A stretch of 53,884 bases of DNA from Woeseiaceae bacterium (GTDB lineage: Bacteria > Pseudomonadota > Gammaproteobacteria > Steroidobacterales > Woeseiaceae). The notes below the pieces were generated by a model that ran no database searches, was not told where the DNA came from, and was given only the letters and a program-made list of their open reading frames with translations. Of the stretch, positions 8,237 through 26,944 are shown one piece after another; position 1 is the first letter of the stretch; every line of letters starts with the position of its first letter. The position numbers were made by a program, and so were the translations under genes. The DNA is taken from assembly GCA_021773135.1 (NCBI GenBank), contig JAJFKP010000009.1, positions 1 to 53,884 on the forward strand, written 5' to 3'.

Positions 8237-8252
8237 GTTGTTCTCCGTCCAG

Positions 8253-10430: not shown

Positions 10431-10469
10431 CAACCAGGCTCGCGTCGCACCCGATTGGCCAGAAAAGTC

Positions 10470-11753
10470 CTAGCGGGGATTGTGCAGCGCCTGGTTGAGC
10501 ATGTCTGGCGTCACCAGCACCACGCCATCATCGGTTATCCGAAAACCTCGGGCCCGGTCCGCATCGGCGTCCTCACCAATCACCACGTCTTCGTCGATGA
10601 TGGCGCCGCGATCGATAATGCAACGGTTGATGCGGGCTCGTTTGCGAATTTCGACCTCGGGAAGAATGACCGAATCGCGAACAATACTTTGCTCCTCTGC
10701 ACGGCAATCAGAAAAAAACAGGGAGCGCTGAACGCTCGCACCAGAGATCACACACCCGCCTGCAATCATCGAATCGATCGCTTCGCCGCGGCGATCGGGC
10801 TGGTCAAACACGAATTTGGCCGGCGGCGACTGCCGCTGATTCGTGTAGATCGGCCAGTTCCGATCGTACAGGTTCAGTTGCGGGGTCACAGTGATGAGCT
10901 CCATATTCGCCTGCCAGAAGGCGTCCAGCGTGCCGACATCGCGCCAGTATGCCTGCTTTGACGTATTGGGATCACGAAACGGGTACGCGTACACGTTGTG
11001 CGTCTTGATAATCGATGGAATGATGTTGCGGCCGAAATCGTGCTGCGTGCCTGGTGTTTCGGCATCTTTGACAACCTGCTCGAAAAGGAACTGCGTGTTG
11101 AAAACATAGTTGCCCATGGAAGCAAGGCAGGTGTCCGGCTTGCCGGGCAAAGGCGCGGGCTCTGCAGGTTTCTCGTCAAACGCGATGATACGGCCCGATT
11201 CGTCAACCGTCATCACGCCCAACGCGCCTGCCGCTTCCTCGAGCGGTACCTCGATGCAGCATACCGTCATGTCGGCATCCGTCGACGCGTGTGCCGCAAG
11301 CAGCGGGCCATAGTCCATCTTGTAAACGTGGTCACCGGCCAGTATCAGCACCAGGCGTGGGTCGTGGGTACGAATGATATCGAGATTCTGATAAATCGCA
11401 TCGGCAGTGCCTCGGTACCACTCACCGCCAATGCGCTGCGACGCCGGAAGTATCTCGATAAATTCTCGCAACCCTGCCTGCACCCAGGTCCAGCCCTGCA
11501 CGAGGTGCCGGATCAGTGAATGCGCTTTGTACTGTGTCAACACGCCTATACGACGAATTCCGGAATTGATGCAATTCGACAACGCAAAATCGATGATGCG
11601 CAGTTTCCCCCCGAAATAGACAGACGGCTTGGAGCGCCAGCGGGTCAGCTCATAGAGCCGCGAACCCTGTCCTCCTGCGAGAACAAGCGCGAGCGTTTCA
11701 CGTGTCAGCCGACTGATATGACGTTCGTCGTCCAGGTGCTTTTTGTTAGGCAT
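10470..11753 (-). CDS. glgC: Glucose-1-phosphate adenylyltransferase
   Basis: A 427-residue ADP-glucose pyrophosphorylase making ADP-glucose from ATP and glucose-1-phosphate, the committed step of bacterial glycogen synthesis. The N-terminal nucleotidyltransferase domain shows [11 protein letters not shown] and [21 protein letters not shown]-type motifs. The middle contains IIAFDEKP and GNYVFN, and the C-terminal left-handed beta-helix carries ISGASVQRS and [15 protein letters not shown]. The N-terminal Arg- and Lys-rich region is like that of allosterically controlled enzymes, but effector specificity cannot be read here. It lies 53 bp after malQ and 39 bp before glgB. Confidence 0.96.
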
Positions 11754-11806
11754 GGTCGGACTCGATTCGATTTCCTGTACCAGAGTGTAACCCAGCTATG
11801 CATCCG

Positions 11807-13369
11807 TCAGTCAGTCGCGCCGCGAAGAACCGCGGAGCGGCCGCTACGGGAGATGAACGTGCCCACCTGGTCGATCAGTCGCGCAGACAATTCGCCCTCT
11901 TGCATTCGCCAACGCCAGTTGCCAGCTGTCGTGCCCGGCGTATTCATTCGGGATTCCGAACCGAGGCCGAGCAGATCCTGCATAGGGGCGACGGCCATAC
12001 GGGCCTTGCTGTCGAGCGCCATGCGGAACAAATCAATGTGCACCGTCGCTTCGCTTCCGCCCGTCAGTTCGAGAACCCTTGCCTGCAGCATGCGACTGCC
12101 GGCAGCGCTGCGCCGGCCGTAAGCGTCGCCGCTGAACCAACCCCGGGTCGTGTCATTGTCGTGGGTGCCGGTATAACAAACGCAGTCCTCATCAATTTGC
12201 CCGGGCGCGAAATTTTCGTCCTGAAACGCGAACTGGAGTACCTGCATACCGGGAATGTCGAAACGCCGTCGTAGCGCGATCACGGCCGGGGTTATCTCCC
12301 CAAGGTCCTCGGCGACAATAGGCAATTGTCCCAAGGCATTTTCAAAAGCGCGAAACAATGCGTCGCCGGGTCCTTTGACCCATCGCCCCGCCCGAGCCGT
12401 TTCGGCATCCGCCGGAATCGACCAGAATGACTCAAATCCCCTGAAGTGATCGATCCGGACCAGATCCGCTTGCGTGATTGCGCGTCGGAGTCGCTGCACC
12501 CACCATTTGAAATCTTCGTCCCGGTGCCGCCGCCATCGATACAGCGGGTTGCCCCATCGTTGCCCGTCGACATCGAAGTAGTCCGGCGGTACGCCGGCAT
12601 GCGCCTGCATCACACCGTCGCGATTCATTTGCAGCAAGTCCGGGCGGACCCAGGCGTCTGCGCTGTCAGAGGCCACATAAATCGGCATGTCACCGAACAG
12701 CCACACATCATGGCAGGCCGCAAAGGACTGCAGCTCACGCCACTGCCGATCGAAGAGGAACTGCAGGATCTTGACGCGTTTGATCTCGGCCCGCTCGTCC
12801 CGGTCAAACTTCGCCAGCGAGCGCTGGTAGCGGCGCCGGTAGCGGCGTTCCCAATGCGGCCACGCGACCTGGCCATTACGCAGCTTCAGAACGCGAAAGC
12901 GTGCATAGTCATGCAGCCATTCGGCGTCGGCCAGGTGCATGAATTCTTCGAGCCCGGTTCGCAGAGCGCCCGCGCCGTGCGCCTCGAAATTTGCCGCAGC
13001 GCCGGCCAGTATGGCCGTTTTGACGGGAATCAGGTGGTCGAAATCGACGGTGTCGCGCGCGAAACCGGTTAACGGCATAACGTCTCGATGCCGAAGCAGG
13101 CCGTCGGCGATCAAACTGTCGACATCGATCAGGAGTTCGTTGCCGGCAAACACGGACAGGGGTTGATAGGGAGAGTTGCCGAATGCGGTGGGACCGATCG
13201 GCAGAAATTGCCAGACCGTCGCCTGCATCGCTTGCAGTGCCCGAACGAAAGCCCTCGCATCTGTGCCGATCCCGCCAATCCCGTAGGTGCCAGGTAAGGA
13301 CGACAGGTGCAGACAGACACCGGCACTTCGGGACTTCGGTGGCGCCAGTTTTGGTTTCCTGTTTTTCAT
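11807..13369 (-). CDS. malQ: 4-alpha-glucanotransferase (amylomaltase)
   Basis: A GH77 enzyme of about 520 residues that transfers alpha-1,4-glucan segments between malto-oligosaccharides, recycling the short chains left by GlgX and GlgP. Typical GH77 motifs are present: LHLSSLPGTYGIGGIG near the N-terminus, DLVRIDHFRGFESFW (nucleophile Asp), IVAEDLGEITPAV (acid Glu) and YTGTHDNDTTRGW. I chose the ATG at 13369 (MKNRKPKL); an in-frame ATG at 13390 and upstream starts to 13468 are possible. It is the first gene of the minus-strand glycogen operon and is divergent from the ATP-grasp operon that begins at 13489, so the roughly 120-bp gap should hold promoters for both. Confidence 0.94.
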   Translation of the reverse strand: MKNRKPKLAPPKSRSAGVCLHLSSLPGTYGIGGIGTDARAFVRALQAMQATVWQFLPIGPTAFGNSPYQPLSVFAGNELLIDVDSLIADGLLRHRDVMPLTGFARDTVDFDHLIPVKTAILAGAAANFEAHGAGALRTGLEEFMHLADAEWLHDYARFRVLKLRNGQVAWPHWERRYRRRYQRSLAKFDRDERAEIKRVKILQFLFDRQWRELQSFAACHDVWLFGDMPIYVASDSADAWVRPDLLQMNRDGVMQAHAGVPPDYFDVDGQRWGNPLYRWRRHRDEDFKWWVQRLRRAITQADLVRIDHFRGFESFWSIPADAETARAGRWVKGPGDALFRAFENALGQLPIVAEDLGEITPAVIALRRRFDIPGMQVLQFAFQDENFAPGQIDEDCVCYTGTHDNDTTRGWFSGDAYGRRSAAGSRMLQARVLELTGGSEATVHIDLFRMALDSKARMAVAPMQDLLGLGSESRMNTPGTTAGNWRWRMQEGELSARLIDQVGTFISRSGRSAVLRGATD

Positions 13370-13488
13370 TGGTACCGGATCCATCCGCATGTCCGCTTCG
13401 GATTTTGTAATTGTAAAAGAACTACTTGCCAGCAGAAGCATATCCCGGATTACTTGCCTTGGGGCCAACTCGGTGTTCTCCTAGCGCA

Positions 13489-14712
13489 GTGAAGCCGCAT
13501 ATCATTTTTGTTGCGCCGTTTTTCATGGACGCTACTCTACGATTTCTTTCCGGCACCGCCGGTCTGCCGGGTATTCGACTGTCGCTGATCAGCCAGGATC
13601 CGGCGGAACGCCTGCCGGACCACCTGCGACATCGCCTCGACGGCCACTACCGGATCGATGACGGCCTGGATCCCCAGCAGATCGTTGACGCCGCGCGGAA
13701 GCTGGCAAGGTCGCTGGGTCCGCCCGCACGAATGTTTGGACCGCTCGAGCAATTGCAGGTGTCCCTCGCGCAAGCGCGCGAAGCACTGGGTTTACCCGGA
13801 CTGAGCGCCGAGGCTGCCCTTAGGTTCCGGGACAAGGCATTGATGAAAACCGTGCTGAGCAAGGCCGGCATACCCTGTGCTCGCCACTTGCTGGCTGGCG
13901 AGGAAACGGCAGTGCGCGGCTTCGTCGAGACGGTCGGCTTTCCGATTGTGGTCAAACCTCCGGCAGGCGCAGGCGGCAAGAACACTTTTCGGCTCAACCG
14001 GAATGCGGATCTTGATGCTTTCCTGCGAAGTTATCCGCTGGATCCGGGCAGCCCGACACTCTTCGAGGAATTTGTGCAGGGCACCGAGTACTCGTTCGAC
14101 AGCGTCGTAATTGGCGGTCGCCGTATCTGGCATTCGATTTCAGAATACCAACCAACACCGCTCGAAGTGCTGGAGAACGGCTGGATACAGTGGTGCGTAA
14201 TGTTGCCCAGAGACATTGGCGGCAGCGAATTCGCGCCCATAGTGGACGCAGCGTTCGCAGGACTTGCGGCGCTAGGCATGCAAACCGGTTTCAGTCACAT
14301 GGAGTGGTTCAGGACCCCGGATGGCCGCATCGCCATCTCGGAGGTCGGCGCCCGTCCTCCAGGCGCTCAGTTTTCGTCGTTGATTTCGTATGCTCATGAT
14401 GTCGATATATATTCACTGTGGCCGCGACTAATGGTATTCGACGAATTTGAGCCGCCTGTCCGCCGCTATGCCGTCGGCGCCGCTTATCTCCGCGGCCAGG
14501 GAGCGGGCCTGGTCCGGCACGTTTCAGGACTCGACACCGCCCAGGAGCGATACGGTGACCTCGTTGTTGAAGCGAGGCTTCCTGCAGCCGGCCAGTCGCC
14601 GTCGGACAGTTACGAGGGCGATGGCTTTGTCATTCTCAGACACGAGAAAACCGAGGTCATCGAGAATGCATTGCGGGATATCGTACAGATCGTGCGTGTG
14701 GAACTCGGTTGA
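13489..14712 (+). CDS. ATP-grasp ligase (paralogue A of glycogen locus)
   Basis: A 407-residue ATP-grasp enzyme; the family joins a carboxylate to an amine or similar nucleophile through an acyl-phosphate, with ATP cleaved to ADP. Visible parts: an N-terminal pre-ATP-grasp region, GFPIVVKPPAGAGGKNTF (ATP-binding lysine and loop), LFEEFVQGTEYSFD (the hinge Glu pair) and EVGARPPGA (Mg2+-binding Glu and the region corresponding to ExNxR). The substrate is unknown. It resembles the ligases at 18813-20030 and 21602-22822. The start is GTG at 13489; the longer frame upstream is not needed. It overlaps the S51-like gene (TTGA) and leads a five-gene operon divergent from malQ. Confidence 0.85.
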   Translation: MKPHIIFVAPFFMDATLRFLSGTAGLPGIRLSLISQDPAERLPDHLRHRLDGHYRIDDGLDPQQIVDAARKLARSLGPPARMFGPLEQLQVSLAQAREALGLPGLSAEAALRFRDKALMKTVLSKAGIPCARHLLAGEETAVRGFVETVGFPIVVKPPAGAGGKNTFRLNRNADLDAFLRSYPLDPGSPTLFEEFVQGTEYSFDSVVIGGRRIWHSISEYQPTPLEVLENGWIQWCVMLPRDIGGSEFAPIVDAAFAGLAALGMQTGFSHMEWFRTPDGRIAISEVGARPPGAQFSSLISYAHDVDIYSLWPRLMVFDEFEPPVRRYAVGAAYLRGQGAGLVRHVSGLDTAQERYGDLVVEARLPAAGQSPSDSYEGDGFVILRHEKTEVIENALRDIVQIVRVELG

Positions 14713-15644
14713 CCGTGCAACAACTATTCATTCTTGGACCGCAGCGTCCCGACATAAACCTGGATCAGGCTTTCTCGGGTATCGAGTCGTCGCGGCCGAT
14801 TGCCGTGATATCAGCTGGATGGCAGGAAGCCGAAAACGACATTGACAGCATCGCGAGCGTCATACAACGAAAGCTCACGGACCTTCGACTCTACAGCCAC
14901 GCCGACGAGCTTTTTAAGGAAGACGACCTGTTGCGCGATCAGTATCGCCGGCGCCAGGATCGTCTACAGGAACTGCAGCGCGTGCACCGGATTCGGCTGC
15001 GACAATCTCTCATTGCCGCGCGGCGCCTGCTGCGCGCGGAAGGCGACGCACAAATTCTGCGCCACGAACAGCGTCATGCGATCTCGCAGCTGCGTTCGCT
15101 CGATCGACACCACGCCAAGAGCATTGCGGCAATCCACGCTGAGTTTGACCAGTTGCTGCAGGATCGCCCGTCCGATCAACTGGAGCGAAAGACCCGCCAG
15201 ATCGCCGACGCCGTTGCGGATTCCGACGTTGTTTTGATAACGGGTGGAAACGTTGCCGTATTGGTCAACCGGCTACGACTGTTTGGTGTGAAAGACATGT
15301 TGCGCGACAAGACAATTGTTGCCTGGTCGGCGGGAGCAATGGCGCTGACCGATCACGTCGTCCTGTTTCACGACAAGACACCGCTCGAGAACCGCGATGC
15401 CGAACTACTGGATTGCGGCCTTGGCATTATTCCTGGCGTTGTTTTGCTGCCGAATGCGCGCCACCGGCTGCGGTGGAACGATCGAGTTCGGATCGGTCTC
15501 TTCAGCAGGAGATTTGCGCCGGCTGCGAGCCTGACCCTGGATAACGGCGCTATGCTCCATTATCGCGACGGCCAGCCTGTATCGGCGACCGGCGTCAAGC
15601 GGCTCCTGCGCAGTGGCCGCTTTCGCAAGGCTCGCGTCCAGTGA
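14709..15644 (+). CDS. Peptidase S51/cyanophycinase-like hydrolase with long helical insert
   Basis: A 311-residue protein with a class I glutamine-amidotransferase-like fold of the dipeptidase E/cyanophycinase type. The motifs are LITGGNVAVL (about 176-185) and the nucleophile elbow VAWSAGAMAL with Ser about 207. Between the first strand (about residues 31-36) and the GGN motif sits a charged, Arg/Gln/Leu-rich helical stretch (about 50-165) predicted to be coiled-coil, which I do not recall from ordinary S51 enzymes. The family cleaves Asp-X dipeptides or cyanophycin-type beta-Asp bonds; the substrate here is unknown. It starts at TTG 14709 (coupled) or GTG 14715, and is translationally coupled both to an ATP-grasp ligase and to an esterase, suggesting cleavage of the ligase product. 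Confidence 0.75.
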   Translation: MTVQQLFILGPQRPDINLDQAFSGIESSRPIAVISAGWQEAENDIDSIASVIQRKLTDLRLYSHADELFKEDDLLRDQYRRRQDRLQELQRVHRIRLRQSLIAARRLLRAEGDAQILRHEQRHAISQLRSLDRHHAKSIAAIHAEFDQLLQDRPSDQLERKTRQIADAVADSDVVLITGGNVAVLVNRLRLFGVKDMLRDKTIVAWSAGAMALTDHVVLFHDKTPLENRDAELLDCGLGIIPGVVLLPNARHRLRWNDRVRIGLFSRRFAPAASLTLDNGAMLHYRDGQPVSATGVKRLLRSGRFRKARVQ

Positions 15645-16777
15645 ACGCCGAACTACGCAAGCTCATCAGGAGTGGCGAAGCCTCCGCGGACGCGATCGAC
15701 CGGTTCATCGCGGCGAACAAGTTCCCGATGGTTGACGGCACCGATGTGACGTTCGTCTACCGCGGCGCCGCGGAGGCTATTTTCCTGCGCTGCTGGATCG
15801 CGGGACTCGAAACAGCGCGGCCGCTACAACATCTTCCTGGCTCTGATCTGTGGGCAACGACGATCGAATTGCCGGAAACCTCGCGTATCGAATACAAGTT
15901 CGAAGTCGTCGCCAATGGCAACAGCCACCTGGTTGTCGACCCGCTTAATCCGGTTCTGGCCCATGATCCGTTCGGCGCCAATTCGGTCTGCCAGGGATAT
16001 CGCTATGAGCGGCCGGTCTGGACGAAACCGGATGACAGCGTTCGTGAGGGCCAAATCGAGCAGGTCCGGTTGCACAGCAAGGCTTTTGGCGAACGGCGCA
16101 CGATTGACGTCTATTTGCCGGCGCGCTTTCGGACCAATCGCAAGTACCCGATCCTGATTGCACACGATGGCGCAGACTACTTGCGATTTGCTGCGTTGAA
16201 GACAGTACTCGACAACCTGACGGACCGCCTGGAAATTCCGCAGATTATCGTTGCGCTGACGCAGTCGCCGGATCGACTGAAAGAATACGCTGCGAACGAA
16301 CGGCATTCCGCATTTATTGGCGAGGATCTGCTGCCTGCGCTGGCGCGACGCTACCCGCTGGATGATGCGGCACACTCGCGTGGCATTATGGGCGCCAGTT
16401 TTGGCGGCGTCGCTGCCCTGCATGCCGCGTGGAGTTACCCGGACCTGTTCGGTTGTCTTTTGTTACAGTCGGGATCGTTCGCCTTCAGTGATTTCGGTAA
16501 CCATCAACGCGGTCCGGTGTTCGATCCGGTAGCGCGTTTCATGAACCGCTTTCGCGAAGAGGAGCGACAGGCAAGCGACAAAATTTATATGAGCTGCGGA
16601 ATTTATGAGTCCCTGATTTACGAAAACCGATCGCTGGTGCCCAGACTGCAGTCGCAGGGCAGTACAGTGCGGTTTGAAGAAGTGCGCGACGCGCACAACT
16701 GGGAGAACTGGCGTGACCGCATGCGCAATGGCCTTGCCTGGCTTTTTCCCGGTCCTTTGTGGATGGTATACGAATGA
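15641..16777 (+). CDS. Enterochelin-esterase-like hydrolase with N-terminal E-set domain
   Basis: A 378-residue alpha/beta hydrolase of the Fes/esterase-D-like family. Residues about 30-125 form an E-set/CBM48-like domain, comparable with those of enterochelin esterases and of glycogen enzymes. Residues about 150-375 form the hydrolase, with HDGADYLR (oxyanion region), GASFGGVAAL (nucleophile Ser about 253) and a C-terminal DAHNWENWR carrying the probable catalytic His. No signal peptide is seen, so it should act in the cytoplasm. It overlaps the S51-like gene by GTGA, and 56 bp separate it from the next ATP-grasp gene. It could release an acyl or peptidyl group from a sugar hydroxyl or polysaccharide; that is inference from domain make-up and place. 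Confidence 0.78.
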   Translation: MNAELRKLIRSGEASADAIDRFIAANKFPMVDGTDVTFVYRGAAEAIFLRCWIAGLETARPLQHLPGSDLWATTIELPETSRIEYKFEVVANGNSHLVVDPLNPVLAHDPFGANSVCQGYRYERPVWTKPDDSVREGQIEQVRLHSKAFGERRTIDVYLPARFRTNRKYPILIAHDGADYLRFAALKTVLDNLTDRLEIPQIIVALTQSPDRLKEYAANERHSAFIGEDLLPALARRYPLDDAAHSRGIMGASFGGVAALHAAWSYPDLFGCLLLQSGSFAFSDFGNHQRGPVFDPVARFMNRFREEERQASDKIYMSCGIYESLIYENRSLVPRLQSQGSTVRFEEVRDAHNWENWRDRMRNGLAWLFPGPLWMVYE

Positions 16778-16833
16778 CAGCCCCATACCGTGATCCGCTG
16801 TTGGTGGACCACGGGCAATTCAGGATGTGACAG

Positions 16834-18060
16834 ATGGCAAAAATAACGCGAAAAATCGGTCTCTCACTCGGTGCGGACATCTGCTGGCCGATCTGTTACG
16901 AGGCACTTCTTAAGGAACTCGACCTGGATATACCGGCGGGCAAGGACCGCCAGAGTTTCACAGTCGAACGACTGAACATTGAACCGTTCGACCTGCGCCA
17001 GACCTGCCAATACGACGTGGTCATCGACCGACTGACGCACTGGTATCACACATCCAGGGAGTGGATTAAGAAAGCCATACTCACGGACGATCTTTACGTC
17101 TACAACAATCCGTGGTCACTGCAGTCCATGGAGAAACAGACTACCTACTGCGCGATGATGCGGCTCGGTTTCCCGGTGCCGGATACGTGGCTGATTCCGC
17201 CCAAGGCCTATGTAGAATCGGCAGACCTGGCGCCAACCCTTAAACAATACGCAAAGCTCTTCGACCTTGCGGCAATCGGCGACCAGATGGGGTATCCGCT
17301 ATTCATGAAGCCTTATGACGGCGGTGCCTGGGTCGGCGTAACGGCGATCGACGATCGGGACTCGTTGCGCGACGCTTATGACGCCAGCGGCACCCGCGTC
17401 ATGCATTTGCAGAAAGGCGTGCAACCGAATGATGCCTTCGTGCGCTGCATTGGGCTTGGCCCGCAGTGGCGATTGGTAAACTATGACCCGTCTGCACCGC
17501 TGCATGATCGCTACCGTATGGATACTGACTTCCTGACGACCAACGAAGCACAGCATCTGCGCGAGATGACAACGGTAATCAATGCGTTTTTCGGCTGGGA
17601 CTTCAATTCATGTGAAGCCCTCCGTAGCAATGACACCTGGTGTCCAATCGATTTTGCCAATGCTTGTCCTGACTCGCAGGTCACGTCACTCCATTTTCAT
17701 TTTCCGTGGCTGATCAAGGCGAACCTTCGCTGGTCGATCTTCTGTGCCGCAACAGATCGCAAAATGGATACGAATCTCGACTGGCAATCCTATTTCGAAA
17801 TTGCTGATTCCGAGCGTACTTTCGAAGAGAAGCTTGCGGACTACCTGCTTATCGCTCGCCGCCGTTTTGACGTCGAACAGTTCGAGGAATTCTGCGAGAC
17901 GTACCTTTCACATCTGGACGAAGTGGCACACGAATTCTTTGGCAAACCGATCGTGCGTGATGCGATTCGGCAGAAGGTCGAAGCCCTGTTCCCGGAACAT
18001 GAAGTCGACGAATTCACTGAACTATTTTGGGACCGCGTGCAGAACGGCCGGGCTTCGTGA
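16834..18060 (+). CDS. ATP-grasp ligase, RimK-like (divergent)
   Basis: A 408-residue protein with ATP-grasp features: PLFMKPYDGGAWVGV (ATP-binding Lys and Gly-rich loop, about residues 150-170), MHLQKGVQPND in the hinge region and CPIDFANACPDSQ as the likely metal-binding end. It differs from the three paralogues in this locus, with a longer helical C-terminus (about 315-408) rich in Phe, Glu and Asp. The ligand to be joined is unknown. GGATGTGACAG precedes the ATG as a ribosome-binding region. Its stop overlaps the GTG of the following esterase gene, so ligase and esterase are made together. Confidence 0.72.
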   Translation: MAKITRKIGLSLGADICWPICYEALLKELDLDIPAGKDRQSFTVERLNIEPFDLRQTCQYDVVIDRLTHWYHTSREWIKKAILTDDLYVYNNPWSLQSMEKQTTYCAMMRLGFPVPDTWLIPPKAYVESADLAPTLKQYAKLFDLAAIGDQMGYPLFMKPYDGGAWVGVTAIDDRDSLRDAYDASGTRVMHLQKGVQPNDAFVRCIGLGPQWRLVNYDPSAPLHDRYRMDTDFLTTNEAQHLREMTTVINAFFGWDFNSCEALRSNDTWCPIDFANACPDSQVTSLHFHFPWLIKANLRWSIFCAATDRKMDTNLDWQSYFEIADSERTFEEKLADYLLIARRRFDVEQFEEFCETYLSHLDEVAHEFFGKPIVRDAIRQKVEALFPEHEVDEFTELFWDRVQNGRAS

Positions 18061-18788
18061 GCACAAAGGACGTCATCCGCTGGCATTCGCAACACCTGGA
18101 ACGTGACGTGCAGCTGGTTCGCTGGGGCCACTTCGGCGCGCCTGTATTACTGTTTCCGACCGCGGGTGGCGATGCCGAAGAGGTGGAGCGGTTCCAACTG
18201 ATCCGCGCGCTGGAGCCATTGCTCGATGCAGGACGCCTAAAAATCTACTCCACAGACAGTGTTGCTGGTAAAGCGTGGATCTCTGGAGAACACACAGGTG
18301 AATACTGTTCCAGGTTACAGAATCTGTTCGACGCATTTGTCTACCGGGAAGTAACGCCGGCGATCCGCAAAGACTGCGAATCGGACTCAATTGAAATCAT
18401 CGCGACCGGCGCTTCAATCGGCGCCTTTAACGCCGTTGCGACCGTATGTCGTCATCCGGATGTTTACAAACTGGCCATCGCAATGAGTGGCACTTTTGAT
18501 CTGTCGAAGTACCTGGAGGGCCGTTTCAACCAGGATTTCTATTTCTCGTCGCCACTTCATTTCCTGCCAGGTCTCGACGGCGAGGCGCTCAAACTGTTGC
18601 AATCCAGACTGATATTACTGCCGACGGGCGAAGGTGACTACGAAGACATCGGCGAATCGTGGCGGCTGGCCGGTGTGCTGGGTGACAAACGGGTGCCAAA
18701 CCGCGTTGACTCGTGGGGGCCGCAGTATCACCATAATTGGGTGACGTGGCGCGAAATGCTGCCAAAGTATCTTGCTCAGTTCGTTTGA
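18057..18788 (+). CDS. Esterase-family alpha/beta hydrolase
   Basis: A 243-residue single-domain hydrolase of the putative-esterase (esterase D-like) family. It has APVLLFPTAGG (oxyanion region), IIATGASIGAFNA (nucleophile Ser about 120) and a C-terminal HHNWVTWREML with the likely catalytic His. No signal peptide is visible. The start is GTG 18057, which overlaps the previous stop as GTGA; longer starts fall inside the upstream gene. It is the last gene of the operon 13489-18788 and converges with the ATP-grasp gene on the other strand 24 bp away. With 15641-16777 it makes two esterases in one operon, suggesting an ester-linked intermediate or product. Confidence 0.8.
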   Translation: MSTKDVIRWHSQHLERDVQLVRWGHFGAPVLLFPTAGGDAEEVERFQLIRALEPLLDAGRLKIYSTDSVAGKAWISGEHTGEYCSRLQNLFDAFVYREVTPAIRKDCESDSIEIIATGASIGAFNAVATVCRHPDVYKLAIAMSGTFDLSKYLEGRFNQDFYFSSPLHFLPGLDGEALKLLQSRLILLPTGEGDYEDIGESWRLAGVLGDKRVPNRVDSWGPQYHHNWVTWREMLPKYLAQFV

Positions 18789-18812
18789 GCGCAGGCACGA
18801 CCCTCAACGCCG

Positions 18813-20030
18813 TCAGCCCGCGTAAAGATGTAATTCCGAACCGACTGCGTCGGCCATTGACAGGGTCTGCCCGAGATCGGGATGTCGAAGCATGACAAAA
18901 CCATCGGAAACCAGCGTCTGGCGCCAGTCACGACGAGGCGTGCCCGGCGACAGCAACGTATTCCAGACAACGTGTTCGCCAAAGCGTTTTTGCAAGATGT
19001 CGGCACCCTCAATGGCTTGAATTCTGCCAACTCCCCGGGCCCGCTTGTAAATGGTCGCAACGTTGAATTTGCGGTGAATGTTGTAATCAAAAGGCTTCGC
19101 CGTAACCGCCGAGGCCCAGGCCTTGAAGACGTCGAAATCGCAGGCATATTTCATCTGATCGACCTGATGCGCGCCCGGCGGCCGTGCGCCGATTTCACCG
19201 AAGACAATTTCTCCGTCCGCCTTTCGATACCATTCCATATGTGTGAAACCGGTATTGAATCCAAGCGTCTCGATAACCCGACGCCCCATCTCGATTGCGC
19301 CCTCGAATTCTGGTAGGTCAACGTCGCGTAGTGCGATAACCTGCGGACTGATCCATTCATTGCTCCGTGCGACCAATGGCCGCGGCCGGTACCAGGCAAT
19401 ATTGAAATACGCGATATTGCCGTCGATCGTGATGGTATCGAACGTATATTCTTCGCCATCGACGAATTCCTCCACGCTAACGACCGCGACATGACGCAGC
19501 AAGGGCAGTACGGCCCGTAACTCGTCGTTACTGCCGACTCGATAAGTGTCCGCAGATCCGGCGCCCGCAATCGGTTTCAGAATGACCGGGTAGCCGATAT
19601 CCTGCACCGCAGTCCAAACGTCAGCGACATTGTCGGCGGCGACGTGGCGCGGCGTTCGTATGCCGACCTGGTCGAGCGCGTGTTTCATGGATTCCTTGTC
19701 GCGAAAACGCTGCGCCGAGGAGACATCGAGTCCATCAACCCCGAATTCCTCCCTGAGCTGCGCGGCCAGGACGACCCCCGGTTCCCACAGGCATTCAATC
19801 CGGTCAAGCTGCCGGCCCGATAGCCGGCCACGGATTTCGTCGGCAACTGACGCTGCATCCCACAGCGAGCGGACCTGGATGTAGTCAGCGAGCGAGCGTT
19901 TTACCAGGTCCGGAAGATTTCCGGCTCCCTGGTCGCCGACGCCGATGACTGCGGCACCACATTCGGCGAGACCACGGGTAAACTCCGGCATATCGGCCGG
20001 ATACCCCGGCGAAATCATTAATACATTCAT
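18813..20030 (-). CDS. ATP-grasp ligase (paralogue B of glycogen locus)
   Basis: A 405-residue ATP-grasp enzyme closely related in motif pattern to the ligases at 13489 and 21602. It has a Rossmann-like N-terminus (VLMISPGYPADMPEFTRGLAE), GYPVILKPIAGAGSADTYRV, SVEEFVDGEEYTFDTITIDG and VFGEIGARPPGAHQVDQM. The start is the ATG at 20030 beginning MNVLMISPGY; the frame stays open upstream but that part is Arg-rich and overlaps the divergent glgA region. It stands alone on the minus strand, back-to-back with glgA, with only about 86 bp for both promoters, suggesting joint control with glycogen synthase. The substrate is unknown. Confidence 0.85.
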   Translation of the reverse strand: MNVLMISPGYPADMPEFTRGLAECGAAVIGVGDQGAGNLPDLVKRSLADYIQVRSLWDAASVADEIRGRLSGRQLDRIECLWEPGVVLAAQLREEFGVDGLDVSSAQRFRDKESMKHALDQVGIRTPRHVAADNVADVWTAVQDIGYPVILKPIAGAGSADTYRVGSNDELRAVLPLLRHVAVVSVEEFVDGEEYTFDTITIDGNIAYFNIAWYRPRPLVARSNEWISPQVIALRDVDLPEFEGAIEMGRRVIETLGFNTGFTHMEWYRKADGEIVFGEIGARPPGAHQVDQMKYACDFDVFKAWASAVTAKPFDYNIHRKFNVATIYKRARGVGRIQAIEGADILQKRFGEHVVWNTLLSPGTPRRDWRQTLVSDGFVMLRHPDLGQTLSMADAVGSELHLYAG

Positions 20031-20116
20031 CGGCCAGCCAGACCTCAAAATAGACACGCTTTCGCGAATTGCAACGTAGAATAGCACCCATTGTCGCACC
20101 TCAAAGAAAAACAACA

Positions 20117-21589
20117 TTGGCCCGTAACAACACACTGAAGCTATGTTTTGCCAGCTCCGAGTTTGCGCCTTTCGCAAAGACCGGCGGACTGGCCGACGTG
20201 TGCGCGGCCCTGTCGTCGTTTCTCGACCGTGAAAATCATGATGTGCGCGTGCTGCTGCCATTGTATCGACGAGTTCGGCAGACTGACGTTGACATTCAGC
20301 CCGTCGATTTTCTCCAGAATCTCAATGTCCGGATCGGCCCGCACGACATTCCATATTCGATCGACCAGGTGCGCGTGCCTGGCGAAGAACTTTCGATCTA
20401 CCTGCTGCGCTGCCCGCCGTTATTTGATCGCGACGGTATATACACGCAAGACCATGATGAACATCTGCGTTTTATCATGCTCTCCCGGGCTGCCATCGAG
20501 ATGTGTCAGCATATGGGATTTGCCCCGGATGTGTTTCACGTCCACGACTGGCACACGGCGCTGATTCCGTTGTACCTGAAGACTGTTTACGCATGGGATC
20601 GACTGTTCGAGCACACCCGGACCATACTTACCATCCACAATATTGCCTACCAGGGCGTCATCGGTAGAGACGCACTTCCGGACCTGGGACTCGGCGACGA
20701 TGTCGGGGAACTTCACCAGGGCGAACTTGACGCCGGACGCATTAATTTTCTCAAGACCGGGATCTTGCATGCCGATGTCGTGACCACCGTCAGCCCTACC
20801 TACGCCAGCGAAATCCAGGGTGATGAACTGGGCATGGGGCTACAGGACTTGCTGCGTGCTCGTAGCGACACCCTTATCGGCATACTTAACGGCGTCGATT
20901 ATCGGCACTGGGACCCGTCATGCGACGCCTTGATTCCACATCAGTATTCGTCGAAAAACTTAGCTGGCAAGGCGAAAAACAAACGCAAGCTGGCCAAGGA
21001 GCTTGGCCTCGATGTTGACGATGATGTACCGCTGATTGGCATGGTGACGCGACTGACGCCGCAAAAAGGCATTGACCTGGTGCAGCAAGCGTTACCGGAT
21101 CTTTTGGCGGAGAAACGCTTTGCGCTGGCGATCCTGGGAAGTGGTGCGGCATCATACGAATCCTTTTTCGAATGGTTACAGGCACGACATCGTAATCAGG
21201 TTTGTTTTTACCGGGGATTCAACAACAAACTTGCCCACTGGATCGAAGCCGCTAGCGACATGTTTTTGATGCCATCGCTTTTCGAACCCTGCGGGCTGAA
21301 CCAGATGTACAGCCTTCGCTATGGGACGGTGCCAATTGTCCACGATACCGGCGGGCTCGCGGACACGGTCGAACTGTTCAATCCCGCTACGGGCAGCGGT
21401 AATGGCATCAAGTTCAGACATGCCGACGCGAACGCACTGCGCTGGGCAATCGAGACGGGGCTGGGATGGTATGCGGACAAGCGTATGTGGCGACGAATCA
21501 TGCGCAACGGCATGGCGATGGATTATTCCTGGGATCGCCAGGGTAAACAGTATATTGACCTGTACCGGCGACTGTCCGGCGCAGAATAA
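20117..21589 (+). CDS. glgA: Glycogen synthase (ADP-glucose type)
   Basis: A GT5 enzyme of about 490 residues that transfers glucose from ADP-glucose to the growing alpha-1,4 chain. Diagnostic motifs are LCFASSEFAPFAKTGGLADV (KTGGL, ADP-glucose binding), VFHVHDWHTALIPLYLK, TIHNIAYQG, MVTRLTPQKGIDLV and EPCGLNQMYSLRYGTVPIVH with the GT-B Glu pair. The start is probably the TTG at 20117 (LARNNTLKLCF) after an AAGAAA stretch; another TTG at 20069 is in frame. It is separated from the main glg operon by the ATP-grasp/esterase genes and is followed 12 bp later by two more ATP-grasp genes, so glycogen synthesis is directly co-transcribed with the unknown ligases. Confidence 0.95.
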   Translation: MARNNTLKLCFASSEFAPFAKTGGLADVCAALSSFLDRENHDVRVLLPLYRRVRQTDVDIQPVDFLQNLNVRIGPHDIPYSIDQVRVPGEELSIYLLRCPPLFDRDGIYTQDHDEHLRFIMLSRAAIEMCQHMGFAPDVFHVHDWHTALIPLYLKTVYAWDRLFEHTRTILTIHNIAYQGVIGRDALPDLGLGDDVGELHQGELDAGRINFLKTGILHADVVTTVSPTYASEIQGDELGMGLQDLLRARSDTLIGILNGVDYRHWDPSCDALIPHQYSSKNLAGKAKNKRKLAKELGLDVDDDVPLIGMVTRLTPQKGIDLVQQALPDLLAEKRFALAILGSGAASYESFFEWLQARHRNQVCFYRGFNNKLAHWIEAASDMFLMPSLFEPCGLNQMYSLRYGTVPIVHDTGGLADTVELFNPATGSGNGIKFRHADANALRWAIETGLGWYADKRMWRRIMRNGMAMDYSWDRQGKQYIDLYRRLSGAE

Positions 21590-21601
21590 CGGAATGCCGA
21601 C

Positions 21602-22822
21602 ATGAATATTATTTTCATCGAACCCAGTTTTCCCTATAACCAGAAGAAATTCGTGCACGCATTGTGCGCAGCGGGTGCGAACGTCATTGGCATAGGTGAG
21701 CGGCCTGCAGAATACCTCGACGACGAACTTAAGGAGTGGCTCGCAGACTACACGCAGGTCAGATCGGTTGTGCACGAACCATCACTTCTGGAAGCCGTGC
21801 AGTCTGTCCAGGCGAAAGTTTGGGTCGACAGGCTCGAGGCAACCGTGGAAGCGCACATCATGGCGGCCGCCGCCGTCCGCGAGGCCTGCAGTATTCCAGG
21901 TACGTCCTCTGCGACAGCCTATCTCTGCCGCGACAAGCCGGCTATGAAAGAAGCGCTGCGGAAAGCGGGTGTCCCGTGCGCGCGGTCAACCCGAGCCACG
22001 TCCGGCGCGGAGGCGAAGGCCTTCGCGGACGCCGTTGGTTATCCGTTAATCGTCAAACCACCAGCGGGCGCGGGTGCAGCATCGACTTTCCGCGTTGGTA
22101 ACGCCGCAGATCTAAACCGGGTGATTGTGGAATCCGGACTTGCCGAGGGCACGGAAGTCGCTATCGAGGAATTTATAGAGGGCCATGAGGGCTACCTGGA
22201 TACACTGACGATTAACGGCGAGGTCGCTCACGAATTTGCAACTCATTACTACCCGAACGTGCTTGAAGCGATGCGTCAACGCTGGATTTCACCGCAGATG
22301 GTCGTGACCAACCGCATCGATGCAGCCGGTTACGACGAGGTCAAGGCGATGGCAAGAAAGGTCATTTCCGTGCTGGAAATCGATACGTCGCCGACCCACA
22401 TGGAATGGTTCTACGGGCCAAAGGGACTCAAGTTTTCGGAAATCGGATGTCGCCCGCCCGGTGTCGGGCAATGGGATGTCTACAATGCAGCGAATGAATT
22501 CAATTTGTATTTTGAGTGGGCGCATGCGCTCGTGAAGGGCCGCATTCATACGCGACCTTCCAGACGCTTTTCTGCAGGCATGATTGCGCTTCGGCCGGAA
22601 CGAGACGGCACGATCAGCGGTTACTCCGGGGTGGCGGACATCGAGCGCAAATACCGTGAATGTATATTTGGTGCGCATTTTCCTTCGCCTGGTTCGCCGA
22701 CGCAACCAATCGAAGGCGGTTACATGGCAAACGCCTGGATGCGCTTGCGACACCCCGACTACGATACGCTGCGCGCCATGCTGAACGAAGTCGGGCAGAC
22801 CGTGCGGGTTCACGCAGAATGA
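21602..22822 (+). CDS. ATP-grasp ligase (paralogue C of glycogen locus)
   Basis: A 406-residue ATP-grasp enzyme with a Rossmann-like start (MNIIFIEPSFPYNQKKF), GYPLIVKPPAGAGAASTFRV, AIEEFIEGHEGYLDTLTING and KFSEIGCRPPGVGQWDVYN. Motif order and wording match paralogues A and B, although its start is most like B (both begin MNV/IL-I followed by SPGYP or EPSFP). It lies 12 bp after glgA and overlaps the following PGM1-like ligase by ATGA, so the three genes form one transcription unit. The acceptor and donor are unknown; carboxylate-amine ligation is the family expectation. Confidence 0.86.
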   Translation: MNIIFIEPSFPYNQKKFVHALCAAGANVIGIGERPAEYLDDELKEWLADYTQVRSVVHEPSLLEAVQSVQAKVWVDRLEATVEAHIMAAAAVREACSIPGTSSATAYLCRDKPAMKEALRKAGVPCARSTRATSGAEAKAFADAVGYPLIVKPPAGAGAASTFRVGNAADLNRVIVESGLAEGTEVAIEEFIEGHEGYLDTLTINGEVAHEFATHYYPNVLEAMRQRWISPQMVVTNRIDAAGYDEVKAMARKVISVLEIDTSPTHMEWFYGPKGLKFSEIGCRPPGVGQWDVYNAANEFNLYFEWAHALVKGRIHTRPSRRFSAGMIALRPERDGTISGYSGVADIERKYRECIFGAHFPSPGSPTQPIEGGYMANAWMRLRHPDYDTLRAMLNEVGQTVRVHAE

Positions 22823-24405
22823 GTGACTATGGAGTTATCCCGGCAGGCGGCTCGACTGATCAAGAGATTGCCCGCTTCGAAACGCTCAAGCCGCGATTGC
22901 TCGCGGTTTGGGAGGCCCTCGAAGCTGACGAGTTATATGAACACACCTCGGTCATCGTGCCCTCGCTAAGTGTCGATCAGGAAGAGCTGGCCAAGGTCAC
23001 GGGCGCGTCATTTTACGAAGAGCGGCTGATGTTCGCGGTGATTCGGCTGCGCAATCCAAATGCACGCGTTATTTATATTACAAGCCAGCCTGTCAACCCT
23101 GATGTCGTCGAATATTACCTGGAGCTCTTGCCGGGCGTTGTTTCGTCACACGCTCGGCGGCGATTGCACATGATCTCGGTGTATGACGCGACGCCGCGAC
23201 CATTGAGCGCCAAATTGATCGAACGACCGCGTTTGCTTGCGCGAATCCGGACATTGATTGGCGACCGGCAGCACGCGTATCTCACTTGTTATAACGCCAC
23301 GGCGCTCGAGCGTCGGCTTGCCGTTGAGTTAGGGATCCCGTTAAACGGCGTTGACCCCGCACTTTTATATCACGGCACCAAATCCGGCAGTCGCAAGCTG
23401 TTTGCGAACGCTGGCATCGATCATCCGGCCGGCACAGAAGGTCTCTACGATGAGACTGACATCATCGATGCCCTGCTCGATCTGAAACAGTCTCGGCCGA
23501 CGGTCCGCCGTGCGGTCGTTAAACTCAATGAAGGATTCGCCGGTGAGGGCAATGCGGTCTTTACTTACCCGAACAAGAATCCGAATCGAGATGACATCGC
23601 CGCGGCACTTCGCCTGGTATCGTGGCCGTCGGGCCAGGGTCAGTACGAAACCTACTTGCAGAAATTCGGGATTATGGGCGGCGTTATTGAAGAGATGATC
23701 GAGGCTGCGGAGATTCATTCCCCAAGCGTGCAGATGCGCATACATCCCGATGGCCGTACCTCGCTGGTGTCAACCCATGAGCAGGTCCTCGGTGGCGACA
23801 CCGGACAGGTCTATCTCGGCTGCCGATACCCTGCGCGTGACGACTACCGCCTCGAAATACAGGAATTCGGCATGCGCGTCGGCGAGGAGCTGTCGAGGAA
23901 TGGTGTCATCGGGCGATTCGGTGTCGATTTCATCACCTACCCGAATGAGGACGGCGCCTGGCAAACGCAAGCCATCGAGATCAATCTTCGAATGTGTGGC
24001 ACAACGCCGCCATTTCATGCCCTGGAATTTCTGACCAGTGGCAAAATCGACCACGCAACCGGGCTGTTTCACGCACCGGACGGACAGCAGAAATTTTATT
24101 CTGCGACGGACAACCTCAAATCCCCTGGCTACTGCGGGCTCTTGCCAGAAGACCTGTTTGAAATCATATCCCACTGCGGTCTGCATTTTAGTCACGCAAC
24201 AAACACCGGGGTGCTGTTCTATATGATGGGTGCGCTATCGCAATACGGCAAACTGGGCATGACCTGCATTGGAAATACGCGCGAACAGGCCAGTGAGATG
24301 TTCTCCAGAATGATAGGTGTACTTGACGACGAAACACAGAACAGGAATCACGGTTCGCCCGGGCAGGTAATGCCGTTTCTCGATCGATACCTTTCTATGG
24401 AATAA
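22819..24405 (+). CDS. PGM1-type ATP-grasp peptide ligase-like protein
   Basis: A 528-residue protein similar in build to ATP-grasp peptide ligases of the PGM1 type. An N-terminal domain (about residues 1-180, with VIVPSLSVDQEELAKVTGA) precedes the ATP-grasp part, which shows RRAVVKLNEGFAGEGNAVF, VIEEMIEAAEIHSPS and QAIEINLRMCGTTPPFHAL (metal-binding Glu/Asn, with the conserved Arg). The start is the ATG at 22819 overlapping the upstream stop; the frame is open further upstream only inside the previous gene. PGM1 itself makes a peptide bond in pheganomycin biosynthesis, so peptide or amide formation is a fair expectation; the actual substrates are unknown. It ends the glgA operon and converges with the PQQ dehydrogenase gene. 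Confidence 0.8.
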   Translation: MSDYGVIPAGGSTDQEIARFETLKPRLLAVWEALEADELYEHTSVIVPSLSVDQEELAKVTGASFYEERLMFAVIRLRNPNARVIYITSQPVNPDVVEYYLELLPGVVSSHARRRLHMISVYDATPRPLSAKLIERPRLLARIRTLIGDRQHAYLTCYNATALERRLAVELGIPLNGVDPALLYHGTKSGSRKLFANAGIDHPAGTEGLYDETDIIDALLDLKQSRPTVRRAVVKLNEGFAGEGNAVFTYPNKNPNRDDIAAALRLVSWPSGQGQYETYLQKFGIMGGVIEEMIEAAEIHSPSVQMRIHPDGRTSLVSTHEQVLGGDTGQVYLGCRYPARDDYRLEIQEFGMRVGEELSRNGVIGRFGVDFITYPNEDGAWQTQAIEINLRMCGTTPPFHALEFLTSGKIDHATGLFHAPDGQQKFYSATDNLKSPGYCGLLPEDLFEIISHCGLHFSHATNTGVLFYMMGALSQYGKLGMTCIGNTREQASEMFSRMIGVLDDETQNRNHGSPGQVMPFLDRYLSME

Positions 24406-24563: not shown

Positions 24564-26165
24564 CTACTCGAGCCCAAATACATAGAGCGTCCCGCCGCCT
24601 GTGGAGACCACGCGCTGCTTGCCATCCACAGCAAAGGACATCGGATTGGTACGCACCGCTCCGCCACTCTGGAAGTCCCACAGCGCCTCGCCGGTTGCCG
24701 CATCCAACGCGAACATATTGCCCTCGTTGCTGCCACCGAAAACCAGCCCTCCGGCAGTGGCCATGACGCCTGCCCAGGGCGGCGAATGCAGCATGAATTC
24801 CCACTGCTGCTTGCCAGTCAGTACGTCCAACGCCCGGATCGCGCCGGCGGCATCGTCACCGGACAGCGCCTGCTCGCCGCCACCTAAGAACGGCTCGCCC
24901 TCCTCGTATTCGACATCCGCTTTGTAATACACGGATCCCATGAGGCGGGTGGCAACGAAGAACTGCTCTGTCTCGGGATTGTAGGAAGGGCTGAACCAGT
25001 TTGTCGCACCCTGCAGACTCGGCCAGACCAGGTTACCGTCGTAAGTAGGATCCGTGCCAGGAATGACGATCGGCCGGCCCGCTTCGTCGAGCCCGCTGGC
25101 CCAGGTCTGTTTTGAATACTCGTTGCCGTGCAGGAACTCCCCGGTTTCGCGATCCAGTAAATAGAAAAAGGCATTGCGATTCGCCAGCGCAACAATCTTT
25201 CGGTCTTCGTCGTTGAACTCCGCATCGAGCAAGACCGGAATCTGGTTTGCGTCCCAGTCATGCGTGTCATGCGGCGTATATTGAAAGTGCCATTCTAGTT
25301 CGCCCGTATTCGGATCCAGCGCAATGATCGAACAGGAGTACAGGTTGTCGCCCGGCCGCACATCGCCGTTCCAGTCGGGCGCCGGGTTGCCAACCGTCCA
25401 GTAGAGCAGATCGAGATCGGGATCGTACGATCCGGTCAGCCAGGTAGACCCGCCACCCGTTTGCCAGGCGTCGCCCTGCCAGGTCTCGCTGCCCGGGTCG
25501 CCGGGCGCCGGTATCGTATAAAAACGCCAGTCCAGTTCGCCGGTTGCCGAATCGTAGGCATCGACGAAGCCGCGCACACCAGCCTCCGCTCCACTGACAC
25601 CGATGATAATCCTGTTCTCAATGGCGAGCGGCGCAAGGGTCAACGCAAAGCCGATATCATTGTCGGCAACTGCAACATCCCACCGTACTGCACCCGTTGC
25701 TGCGTCGAGTGACACAAGATGTGCATCCAGCGTTGCAACATAAACCGCGTCATTCAGCAATGCCACGCCACGATTGACCTTGGGGAAACCGATGTTTTTG
25801 ACGTCCTCGTCGATATCGGGGGTCCAGCTCCACAAGCGTTTTCCGGTTCTCGCGTCGAGCGCAGTGACCGTGCTCGGTGGTTCCGTCAGGTACATGACTC
25901 CGTCAGCAACCAGGGGCGTCGTCTCAACCAGACCGGCACCCGTGTGCGTTGAGGGCTGCATCTGATAGGCCCAGATAACCTTGAGATCAACGACATTTTC
26001 GGTATTGATTTCTACGAGCGGCGAATATCGCTCCGACCGATACGTACCCGAATAGGTCAGCCAGCTTTCTTTATCGTCTGCCGCGTTGACGAGGCGTTCG
26101 AAACTGACTTCCGCATGTACCGCCGGAGAAACTAGCAGCGCTGCAACCATTATTGTCTTCTTCAT
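24564..26165 (-). CDS. PQQ-dependent alcohol dehydrogenase, lanthanide-type active site
   Basis: A 533-residue periplasmic quinoprotein with a signal peptide (residues 1-18, ending AVHA) and repeated tryptophan-docking motifs such as ALDARTGKRLWSW and ALDAATGEALWDF of an eight-bladed propeller. The metal/PQQ-site residues are visible: Glu about 194 in GAEAGVRG, Asn about 260 in VGNPAPDWNGD, and HDTHDWDAN with the presumed catalytic Asp about 303 followed two places later by Asp 305. The extra Asp is the mark of lanthanide-dependent (XoxF/PedH-like) enzymes; calcium enzymes have Ala or Ser there. The adjacent Cys pair of methanol dehydrogenase is absent. The alcohol substrate is unknown. Its start overlaps the stop of the cytochrome c gene upstream, its likely electron acceptor. 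Confidence 0.88.
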   Translation of the reverse strand: MKKTIMVAALLVSPAVHAEVSFERLVNAADDKESWLTYSGTYRSERYSPLVEINTENVVDLKVIWAYQMQPSTHTGAGLVETTPLVADGVMYLTEPPSTVTALDARTGKRLWSWTPDIDEDVKNIGFPKVNRGVALLNDAVYVATLDAHLVSLDAATGAVRWDVAVADNDIGFALTLAPLAIENRIIIGVSGAEAGVRGFVDAYDSATGELDWRFYTIPAPGDPGSETWQGDAWQTGGGSTWLTGSYDPDLDLLYWTVGNPAPDWNGDVRPGDNLYSCSIIALDPNTGELEWHFQYTPHDTHDWDANQIPVLLDAEFNDEDRKIVALANRNAFFYLLDRETGEFLHGNEYSKQTWASGLDEAGRPIVIPGTDPTYDGNLVWPSLQGATNWFSPSYNPETEQFFVATRLMGSVYYKADVEYEEGEPFLGGGEQALSGDDAAGAIRALDVLTGKQQWEFMLHSPPWAGVMATAGGLVFGGSNEGNMFALDAATGEALWDFQSGGAVRTNPMSFAVDGKQRVVSTGGGTLYVFGLE

Positions 26166-26944
26166 CGTTCGCTCCGGAGACTCATCAGGTAAGAGACCAC
26201 ATCGTCCAGGTCTTGCCCTGAAAGGCTAGCCCCGTACTCAGGCATTAGACTATGCGCAAAGACTTTTTCGAATTCGATCAGGTCGTCTTTGCGGAACGAA
26301 TGCACAGACCCGGCGACGTCGCGAACCTGGATTGAAAACGCGTCCTCGTTGATACGCAATCCTTCTACGCGATCCTCAAGCGTCCTGACGCGAACCGTTA
26401 GATAGTCTTTATAGCCGGCGGTCTGCGACTGTGCTTCGGCAGGCGCTACCAGCGAGCTGCGCAGATAATCGAGTCCCCGCTGATCGCCGACCGTAGTCAG
26501 TTCGGGGCCGATGCCAATTCCGTGACCCGCAATGATGTGGCATGCCGGGCAGCCGCCAATATCCTGGTAAACCCTGCGCCCACGGCCCGGATCACCGGGC
26601 ATTTCCTCCGCCTCGAGGCGACCCAGCGTGCGCACGTATCCAGCCACTCTCGTTGTCTGCGTGTCATCAAGTGACCAGATTGCTGGCATGCCCGTTCCGG
26701 GTATGCCGTCATCGATAATAGCAATCAGCTGCTCGTCATCGTTGACATACTGAAGCGCTGGCCTTGCCAGGTTTGAGCCTTCACCTCCGGCGCCATCAAT
26801 ACCGTGACAGCGTGCGCAGTGAATGCGGAACAGTCGTTCACCGTCAGCGAGGTCACCCGCCGTCAGCAGGTCCAGAGGAGATTGCGCCATGGCAGCTGGC
26901 GAGGAAAGAATCAGGACTAGCGCAACCAGCCTGCCGTTCTTCAT
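26162..26944 (-). CDS. Exported diheme cytochrome c
   Basis: A 260-residue periplasmic protein with a signal peptide (about residues 1-20, ending AMA). There are two heme-binding motifs, CARCH (43-47) and CPACH (132-136). Candidate Met axial ligands are in GTGMPAIW (about 86) and SLMPEYG near the C-terminus. The second domain has a long insert (about 150-225) before the distal Met. It overlaps the PQQ dehydrogenase gene by ATGA, so the two are co-translated; it most likely takes electrons from the quinoprotein to the terminal oxidase chain. No PQQ-synthesis gene lies in the window. Confidence 0.9.
   Translation of the reverse strand: MKNGRLVALVLILSSPAAMAQSPLDLLTAGDLADGERLFRIHCARCHGIDGAGGEGSNLARPALQYVNDDEQLIAIIDDGIPGTGMPAIWSLDDTQTTRVAGYVRTLGRLEAEEMPGDPGRGRRVYQDIGGCPACHIIAGHGIGIGPELTTVGDQRGLDYLRSSLVAPAEAQSQTAGYKDYLTVRVRTLEDRVEGLRINEDAFSIQVRDVAGSVHSFRKDDLIEFEKVFAHSLMPEYGASLSGQDLDDVVSYLMSLRSER

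Follow-up and report, generated by a model that had tools for sequence, protein, structure and literature searches.

An ATP-grasp ligase and serine hydrolase gene cluster that carries a glycogen synthase gene in a Woeseiaceae bacterium and recurs across bacteria

Why should the glycogen synthase gene of a bacterium stand among genes for peptide-type ligases? The question is raised by a stretch of 53,884 nucleotides (contig JAJFKP010000009.1 of assembly GCA_021773135.1, hereafter the window) from the 4.55 Mb genome of a Woeseiaceae bacterium, in which an island at positions 13,489 to 24,405 adjoins a glycogen operon. An earlier note, made from the letters alone, had recognised in this island five ATP-grasp genes (A1 to A5), two esterase-family genes (Est1 and Est2), an S51-like gene and glgA; all were confirmed where they had been placed, by family models or by predicted fold (Table 1). 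The reading that we favour, at a probability of about 0.6, is that the island belongs to a conserved, patchily distributed non-ribosomal amide or peptide pathway with a functional link to glycogen synthesis. It is drawn from the conservation of the ligase and hydrolase set together with glgA, and from the fact that the glgA of the cluster is the sole copy in some relatives.

The gene set recurs across phyla far beyond chance. A scan of 84,980 species genomes with A2 gave 273 confirmed loci, the best 80 of which were examined, many of them on contigs that end early. According to their record titles, these 80 loci belong to Proteobacteria, Myxococcota, Gemmatimonadota, Acidobacteria, Planctomycetota and Candidatus Eisenbacteria, although single phylum labels may be wrong since most records are metagenome-assembled genomes (MAGs). 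Est1 was present in 76 of the 80 loci, Est2 in 72, A4 in 55, the S51-fold gene in 54, GlgA in 39, A3 in 35, A1 in 31 and A5 in 10. Gene order was likewise kept, Est1 adjoining A2 in 74 loci, A2 adjoining Est2 in 72, the S51-fold gene adjoining Est1 in 54 and GlgA adjoining A4 in 32. The earlier note had asked whether the set stays with glycogen genes elsewhere, and ligases and hydrolases were indeed kept together, and with glgA, in other genomes. A2 is nevertheless rare: of the 274 genomes sampled from the class, only that of the window had it at E<=1e-30, and among 196 sampled from the order of Boseongicola there were two, one of them the centre genome. In a set of 40 relatives (own genome included), A2 was found in 12 at E<=0.001 and counted in 11, the fragment of genome G022 (E 5.9e-4) being left out.

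Two forms of the cluster could be distinguished. Type I displays the order S51-Est1-A2-Est2, commonly with A1, A3 and the GlgA-A4 pair. Type II, defined by absence of the S51-fold gene with room upstream or by an Est1 of less than 46% identity, is reduced to Est1-A2-Est2 and comprised 19 loci, mainly from Alphaproteobacteria and Granulosicoccus, with Est2 in 19 of 19 and A4 in 13 of 19. In the A2 tree, 18 of the 19 type II rows fell in one 21-row branch (96/83) together with three rows of unknown type, the remaining one being from Gemmatimonadota. Strain-named records with this form are Boseongicola aestuarii CECT 8489, Aliiruegeria lutimaris DSM 25294, Oceanibium sediminis O448, Microvirga sp. 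BT688 and Tropicimonas sp. IMCC6043. GlgA went with the S51-fold gene: in the 29 loci where at least 9 kb of sequence lie on each side, GlgA occurred in 16 of 21 with the S51-fold gene versus 0 of 8 without it, and 38 of all 39 loci with GlgA had the S51-fold gene.

Further amide-bond enzymes were met near the cluster, each identified from one representative. A GCS2 carboxylate-amine ligase of the YbdK type accompanies 11 loci, of which L055 has GlgA and the other 10 do not; a GCS2-CBS protein accompanies 6 loci, and four loci from myxococci also encode an N-formylglutamate amidohydrolase. These clusters thus bring together two amide-ligase folds that are unrelated, ATP-grasp and GCS2. Among the relatives, YbdK/GCS2 was found in 11 of 11 genomes with A2 versus 16 of 29 without it (p=0.007, ignoring kinship), which is weaker evidence since the family is common.

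Some loci depart from the compact arrangement. In genome G048 (L069, L121, L165), about 13 kb of a single 834 kb contig separate the Est1-A2-Est2 part from the A3-GlgA-A4 part, and the island may thus consist of two modules; L088 shows a smaller gap between the parts. The MAG G030 (L022, L025, L148) displayed two A2 copies and two GlgA-A4 pairs, its second island apparently being split over contigs C110 and C98 and possibly reflecting a strain mixture in the bin.

The coupling to glycogen is well supported at the level of whole genomes. Matches to PF08323 were present in 33 of 33 A2 genomes searched, the weakest best E-value being 5e-34 (G053) and G046 and G049 having lower-scoring matches only; at E<=1e-30, the background was 151 of 274 and 90 of 196 in the two genome samples. 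In the relatives set, 10 of whose 11 A2-positive members also belong to the 33, GlgA occurred in 11 of 11 genomes with A2 versus 12 of 29 without it (Fisher p=0.0008, ignoring kinship). Counted by GlgA type, the figures became 11 of 11 versus 3 of 29, the split into types having been set after the E-values had been viewed. A tree of 69 GlgA rows (reduced from 82 by removing duplicates and short rows) placed the A4-adjacent GlgAs in a single 47-row clade (100/100), in which two rows came from A2-negative genomes. A strongly separated type was found in eight A2-negative relatives and also includes copies from G016 and L028; the L028 row is the operon GlgA of that locus, whose cluster copy is L124.

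Comparison of the glycogen operons pointed in the same direction and is the most informative evidence for the link. In the A2-negative relatives G012 and G020 the operon reads malQ-glgC-glgA-glgB-glgP-glgX. In the A2-positive window, G017 and G028, glgC adjoins glgB, the operon glgA is missing, and the single PF08323 match of each lies inside the ligase cluster; in the window, glgB and glgC are 36 bases apart, which leaves no glgA between them. A missed copy is unlikely in G017, whose genome is one contig of 4.06 Mb; malQ was not found at its glycogen operon. In two relatives glgB itself was found between A4 and A5. Pieces of A1 were observed at two contig ends of G028 (L021, L161), one beside the island and the other beside glgX, as would be expected if island and operon adjoined in this genome as well, although the contigs are not joined.

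The island GlgA exceeded the TIGR02095 cut-off (552.6 versus 328.45 bits) and is the only PF08323 match of its own genome. Its probable role in making alpha-1,4-glucan from ADP-glucose is supported indirectly, since it is the sole candidate of this family in a genome that also has glgB, glgC, glgP and glgX. The operon that holds these genes spans positions 3675 to 13468 (minus strand), beside the island.

Table 1. Genes of the island and of the adjoining glycogen operon in the window.
Feature	Position	Strand	Assignment or basis
glgX	3675-5771	-	NCBIfam model over cut-off
glgP	5735-8236	-	glycogen-type phosphorylase; NCBIfam model over cut-off
glgB	8253-10433	-	NCBIfam model over cut-off
glgC	10470-11753	-	NCBIfam model over cut-off
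malQ	11807 to ~13441 (start unsure)	-	NCBIfam model over cut-off
A1	13489-14712	+	ATP-grasp ligase, L-amino-acid-ligase/PurK-like; GTG start
S51-fold protein	14709-15644	+	Pfam Peptidase_S51
Est1	15641-16777	+	Fes/CE1-type serine hydrolase with N-terminal beta domain
A2	16834-18060	+	divergent ATP-grasp ligase (by fold)
Est2	18057-18788	+	small PF00756 serine hydrolase without N-terminal domain; GTG start
A3	18813-20030	-	ATP-grasp ligase, paralogue of A1 and A4
GlgA	~20069-21589 (start codon unsure)	+	ADP-glucose glycogen synthase (TIGR02095)
A4	21602-22822	+	ATP-grasp ligase, L-amino-acid-ligase-like
A5	22819-24405	+	BesA/PGM1-like ATP-grasp ligase

Four of the six same-strand junctions of the island (A1/S51, S51/Est1, A2/Est2 and A4/A5) are 4-base overlaps, the start codons behind them being our choice, and gaps of 56 and 12 bases separate Est1 from A2 and GlgA from A4. 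The succession of two ligases after glgA, noted earlier, is as described, A4 following the 12-base gap and A5 its 4-base overlap with A4. The picture of genes mostly joined by such overlaps holds for these junctions and does not extend to a single operon: A3 is read from the other strand, towards Est2 (convergent) and away from glgA (divergent), which with two plus-strand groups implies at least three transcription units. Promoter and terminator predictions within the scan were close to expectation (4 versus 5.2 and 11 versus 12.3, respectively). The island is not set apart from its surroundings by GC content, no tRNA was found within the window, and a check for plasmid carriage found nothing matching A2 in the plasmid collection. 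Directly beyond the island lies a gene pair for a pyrroloquinoline quinone-dependent dehydrogenase and a cytochrome c (24564-26944, minus strand), and an additional lone ATP-grasp protein (ATPgrasp_Ter, 31.9 bits) is encoded about 24 kb from it (48318-49523, minus strand).

What the ligases might do was approached through their families and conserved residues, using alignments from which rows with in-frame stops or poor coverage had been removed. A1, A3, A4 and A5 exceeded the cut-offs of Pfam ATP-grasp models. The scores of A1 and A3 were 37.1 and 30.3 bits, respectively, against a cut-off of 27, A1 also matching LAL_C2 weakly. A1, A3 and A4 are paralogues (A3 and A4 share 33% identity), and their ligase motif reads E-x-G-A/C-R-P-P-G. 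In A1, where it is EVGARPPG, the E and RPPG were invariant in 38 of 38 rows, and in A3 the E and R in 37 of 37, these rows including repeated sequences (33 distinct rows in each alignment). In A4, K112, K152, E268 and E280 were invariant in 30 of 30 rows. A profile of A4, built from 29 of the 49 available locus rows, found as its best solved match the L-amino acid ligase 4wd3 (E=5.3e-23), followed by BacD (2.7e-14) and BL00235 (4.7e-14). Yet A1, A3 and A4 reached only 23-29 bits against a BacD cut-off of 850. A5 matched the Pfam IQCH-like ATP-grasp (95.7 bits) and PGM1_C (45.9 bits) models, but it failed as a BesA (NF042917, 150.4 bits versus a cut-off of 750).

Leaving aside A5, for which sampling was narrow, A2 is the most conserved member of the set: 133 of its 408 positions show at least 97% identity over 86 distinct rows, and K159, D273 and N276 are invariant in 80 of 80. 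Its match to Ddl_C was weak (E=0.002; 18.1 bits, below the cut-off of 24) and local, and the protein was rejected as an ordinary Ddl. The predicted structure (AlphaFold2, pLDDT 90.5) adopts an ATP-grasp fold, for which the nearest solved folds among the Foldseek matches listed were RimK, ArgX/LysX and Ddl (best E 6.9e-11). A2 differs from these enzymes by its low identity (10-17%, with a query TM-score of at most 0.49 among the 50 matches listed) and by about 90 additional residues that form a helical part at the C-terminus. Altogether, A1 to A4 appear to keep the putative ATP and metal residues, an assignment made by reading motifs rather than by superposition. A PurD-like ATP-grasp/GARS protein was also seen near the island in five loci (L044 at 16793-18088, L036, L037, L042 and L045), its family identification resting on the L044 copy.

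Both esterase-family proteins keep the motif residues of serine hydrolases. Est1 matched Pfam Esterase with 88 bits and Est2 with 33.8 (cut-off 22), and the G-x-S-x-G nucleophile and catalytic His of PF00756/CE1 hydrolases were kept in 76 of 76 Est1 rows (S253, D350 and H352 all invariant) and in 32 of 32 Est2 rows (S129 and H235; profile built from 31 of the 67 available locus rows). The Est1 model (pLDDT 92.9) has a predicted two-domain fold whose nearest solved relatives are Fes and the CBM48-CE1 feruloyl and acetyl esterases (TM 0.55-0.74 among the first 28 matches listed), while identity to these same matches was 16-24%, and on the NCBIfam Fes equivalog NF007758 it scored 117.5 bits, below the cut-off of 222. 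The proposal that a CBM48 domain proves glucan binding by Est1 was left unsupported by the PF02922 search.

The S51-like gene is a different case. Its product exceeded the PF03575 cut-off (32.5 versus 23.9 bits), so that the S51 part of its former label stood, but the cyanophycinase and PepE models stayed far under theirs. The nucleophile-elbow Ser was kept in 31 of 32 rows (profile and columns from 31 of the 51 available locus rows), whereas position Ser+42 was H in 15 of 32 rows, D in 10 and N in 2, the window protein having Asn. By its spacing to cyanophycinase, whose catalytic residues we take to be Ser132 and His174, this position would be that of the catalytic His, an equivalence of our own making. 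With Asn there, the label hydrolase is unproven for the window protein, and the cleavage of Asp-peptides that the earlier note had borrowed from the family does not carry over to it; the protein may use another His or may be no peptidase.

No described system combines these features as far as could be seen. Iyer et al. 2009 reportedly described gene clusters of ATP-grasp peptide ligases. PMC4431377, from the Burroughs and Aravind group, presents multi-ligase clusters in which ATP-grasp and COOH-NH2 (GCS2-type) ligases occur together and successive ligation is proposed. The present clusters resemble them in bringing several distinct ligases of both types into one neighbourhood, and differ by their tie to a glycogen synthase, the word glycogen occurring 0 times in that text. 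A more distant parallel comes from animal proteins in which a glycan esterase and an ATP-grasp domain are fused (PMC2824669). The cyanophycin system (CphA and cyanophycinase) also associates ATP-grasp ligases with an S51-fold protein. Cyanophycin storage was nevertheless rejected, the ligases scoring at most 33.6 versus 850 bits on TIGR02068 and at most 35.6 versus 877 on PRK14016, the S51-fold protein 13.5 versus 126.6 bits on the TIGR02069 cyanophycinase model, and the catalytic His position not being kept. As in other bacterial glg operons, glgX, glgP, glgB, glgC and malQ stand in a row in the window, but glgA sits in the ligase cluster. Among the titles and abstract starts of the open-licence PMC literature, no description of such a cluster with a glycogen synthase was found, though an earlier mention is possible; multi-ligase peptide clusters are already known as a kind, and as far as these titles and abstracts tell the tie to glycogen synthase is new.

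The mechanism that we propose for a pathway coupled to glycogen starts from the core. Est1-A2-Est2, usually with A4 and often with a GCS2 ligase, would make and process a small molecule of amide or peptide type through ATP-driven ligation, and to this core the larger form found here would add the paralogous ligases A1 and A3, the S51-fold protein and a dedicated glycogen synthase. The ligases may, we infer, make one product by successive ligation. CE1-type enzymes act on esters of sugars, and on this ground the Fes/CE1-type hydrolases might move the product onto or off glucan hydroxyls as an ester, giving decorated or peptide-primed glycogen, a step that we regard as tentative. More speculative still is the generalisation that, in many bacteria, a short non-ribosomal peptide or amino-acid chain made by A1 to A4 and GCS2-type ligases is esterified to glucan by Est1 and Est2, or primes the dedicated GlgA, which would place stored carbon and stored nitrogen on the same particle.

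Several observations weigh against a tight link with glycogen. Linked GlgA was found in 0 of 19 type II loci, and the A2-positive relatives G027 and G039 are without A4. At least two A2 genomes (G016 and G040) also keep an operon-type glgA, so that replacement is not general; both glgA copies were present in G016 and in the genome of L028, and a second PF08323 match occurred in G041, G043 and others. The co-occurrence figures for A2 and glgA ignore kinship and genome size, and large genomes may carry glgA and the cluster for unrelated reasons. As to Est1, its N-terminal domain was absent from the PF02922 (CBM48) matches of its own genome at E<=1e-5, and Fes carries a similar domain. The earlier proposal of a locus making an amino-acid or peptide conjugate tied to glycogen is thus partly supported: the coupling stands, in that the set is conserved with glgA and the cluster glgA is the sole copy in some relatives, but the specifics of the proposal are weakened by the widespread type II loci without a linked GlgA and by the S51-fold protein of the window, in which the usual catalytic His is missing.

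The rival that survives best is a soluble peptide or amino-acid conjugate (a nitrogen reserve, osmolyte or redox compound) that is merely co-regulated with glycogen, glgA riding along and the glucan staying unmodified. It is a serious alternative, if a clearly less probable one: the existence of type II implies that the core product needs no linked glgA, and the YbdK-type GCS2 in the 10 loci without GlgA fits such a product, as does the N-formylglutamate amidohydrolase added in the four myxococcal clusters. L-amino acid ligases, which A4 resembles, make free dipeptides. Yet the loss of the operon glgA where the cluster-specific glgA clade is present, and the presence in two relatives of glgB between A4 and A5, point to a closer tie than loose co-regulation. 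A RimK-like role, in which A2 and other ligases would add residues to a protein such as GlgA or a primer and thereby control glycogen initiation (a step controlled by glycogenin in eukaryotes, by other means), seems improbable. The nearest folds of A2 do include RimK, in one entry with its substrate RpsF, and ArgX/LysX with the carrier LysW, and GlgA does adjoin A4 in 32 loci, but among the open reading frames of at least 100 amino acids in the clusters we noticed no small conserved protein that could act as carrier or primer, and the two esterases would have no clear role. Weakest of all, and very improbable, is a siderophore-like or defence metabolite cluster lying near the glycogen genes by accident: the Est1 fold is closest to the enterobactin esterase Fes and the gene for a TonB-dependent receptor (40858-43311) lies 16 kb away, yet Est1 falls short of the Fes cut-off, no siderophore gene was recognised in the cluster, none of the recurring neighbours (most of which were not run against the family library) was recognised as an iron or transport gene, and the linkage to glgA extends over several phyla.

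A pathway for an amide- or peptide-type product that is functionally coupled to glycogen synthesis accordingly remains the reading that we prefer, and it would matter beyond this locus. Bacterial glycogen is regarded as plain glucan, the product of a small number of well-known enzymes. In several genomes, however, the sole glycogen synthase gene belongs to a conserved cluster that encodes amide ligases and serine hydrolases. This leaves two options: the glycogen of these bacteria bears a modification or a primer, or its synthesis is wired to a peptide metabolite.

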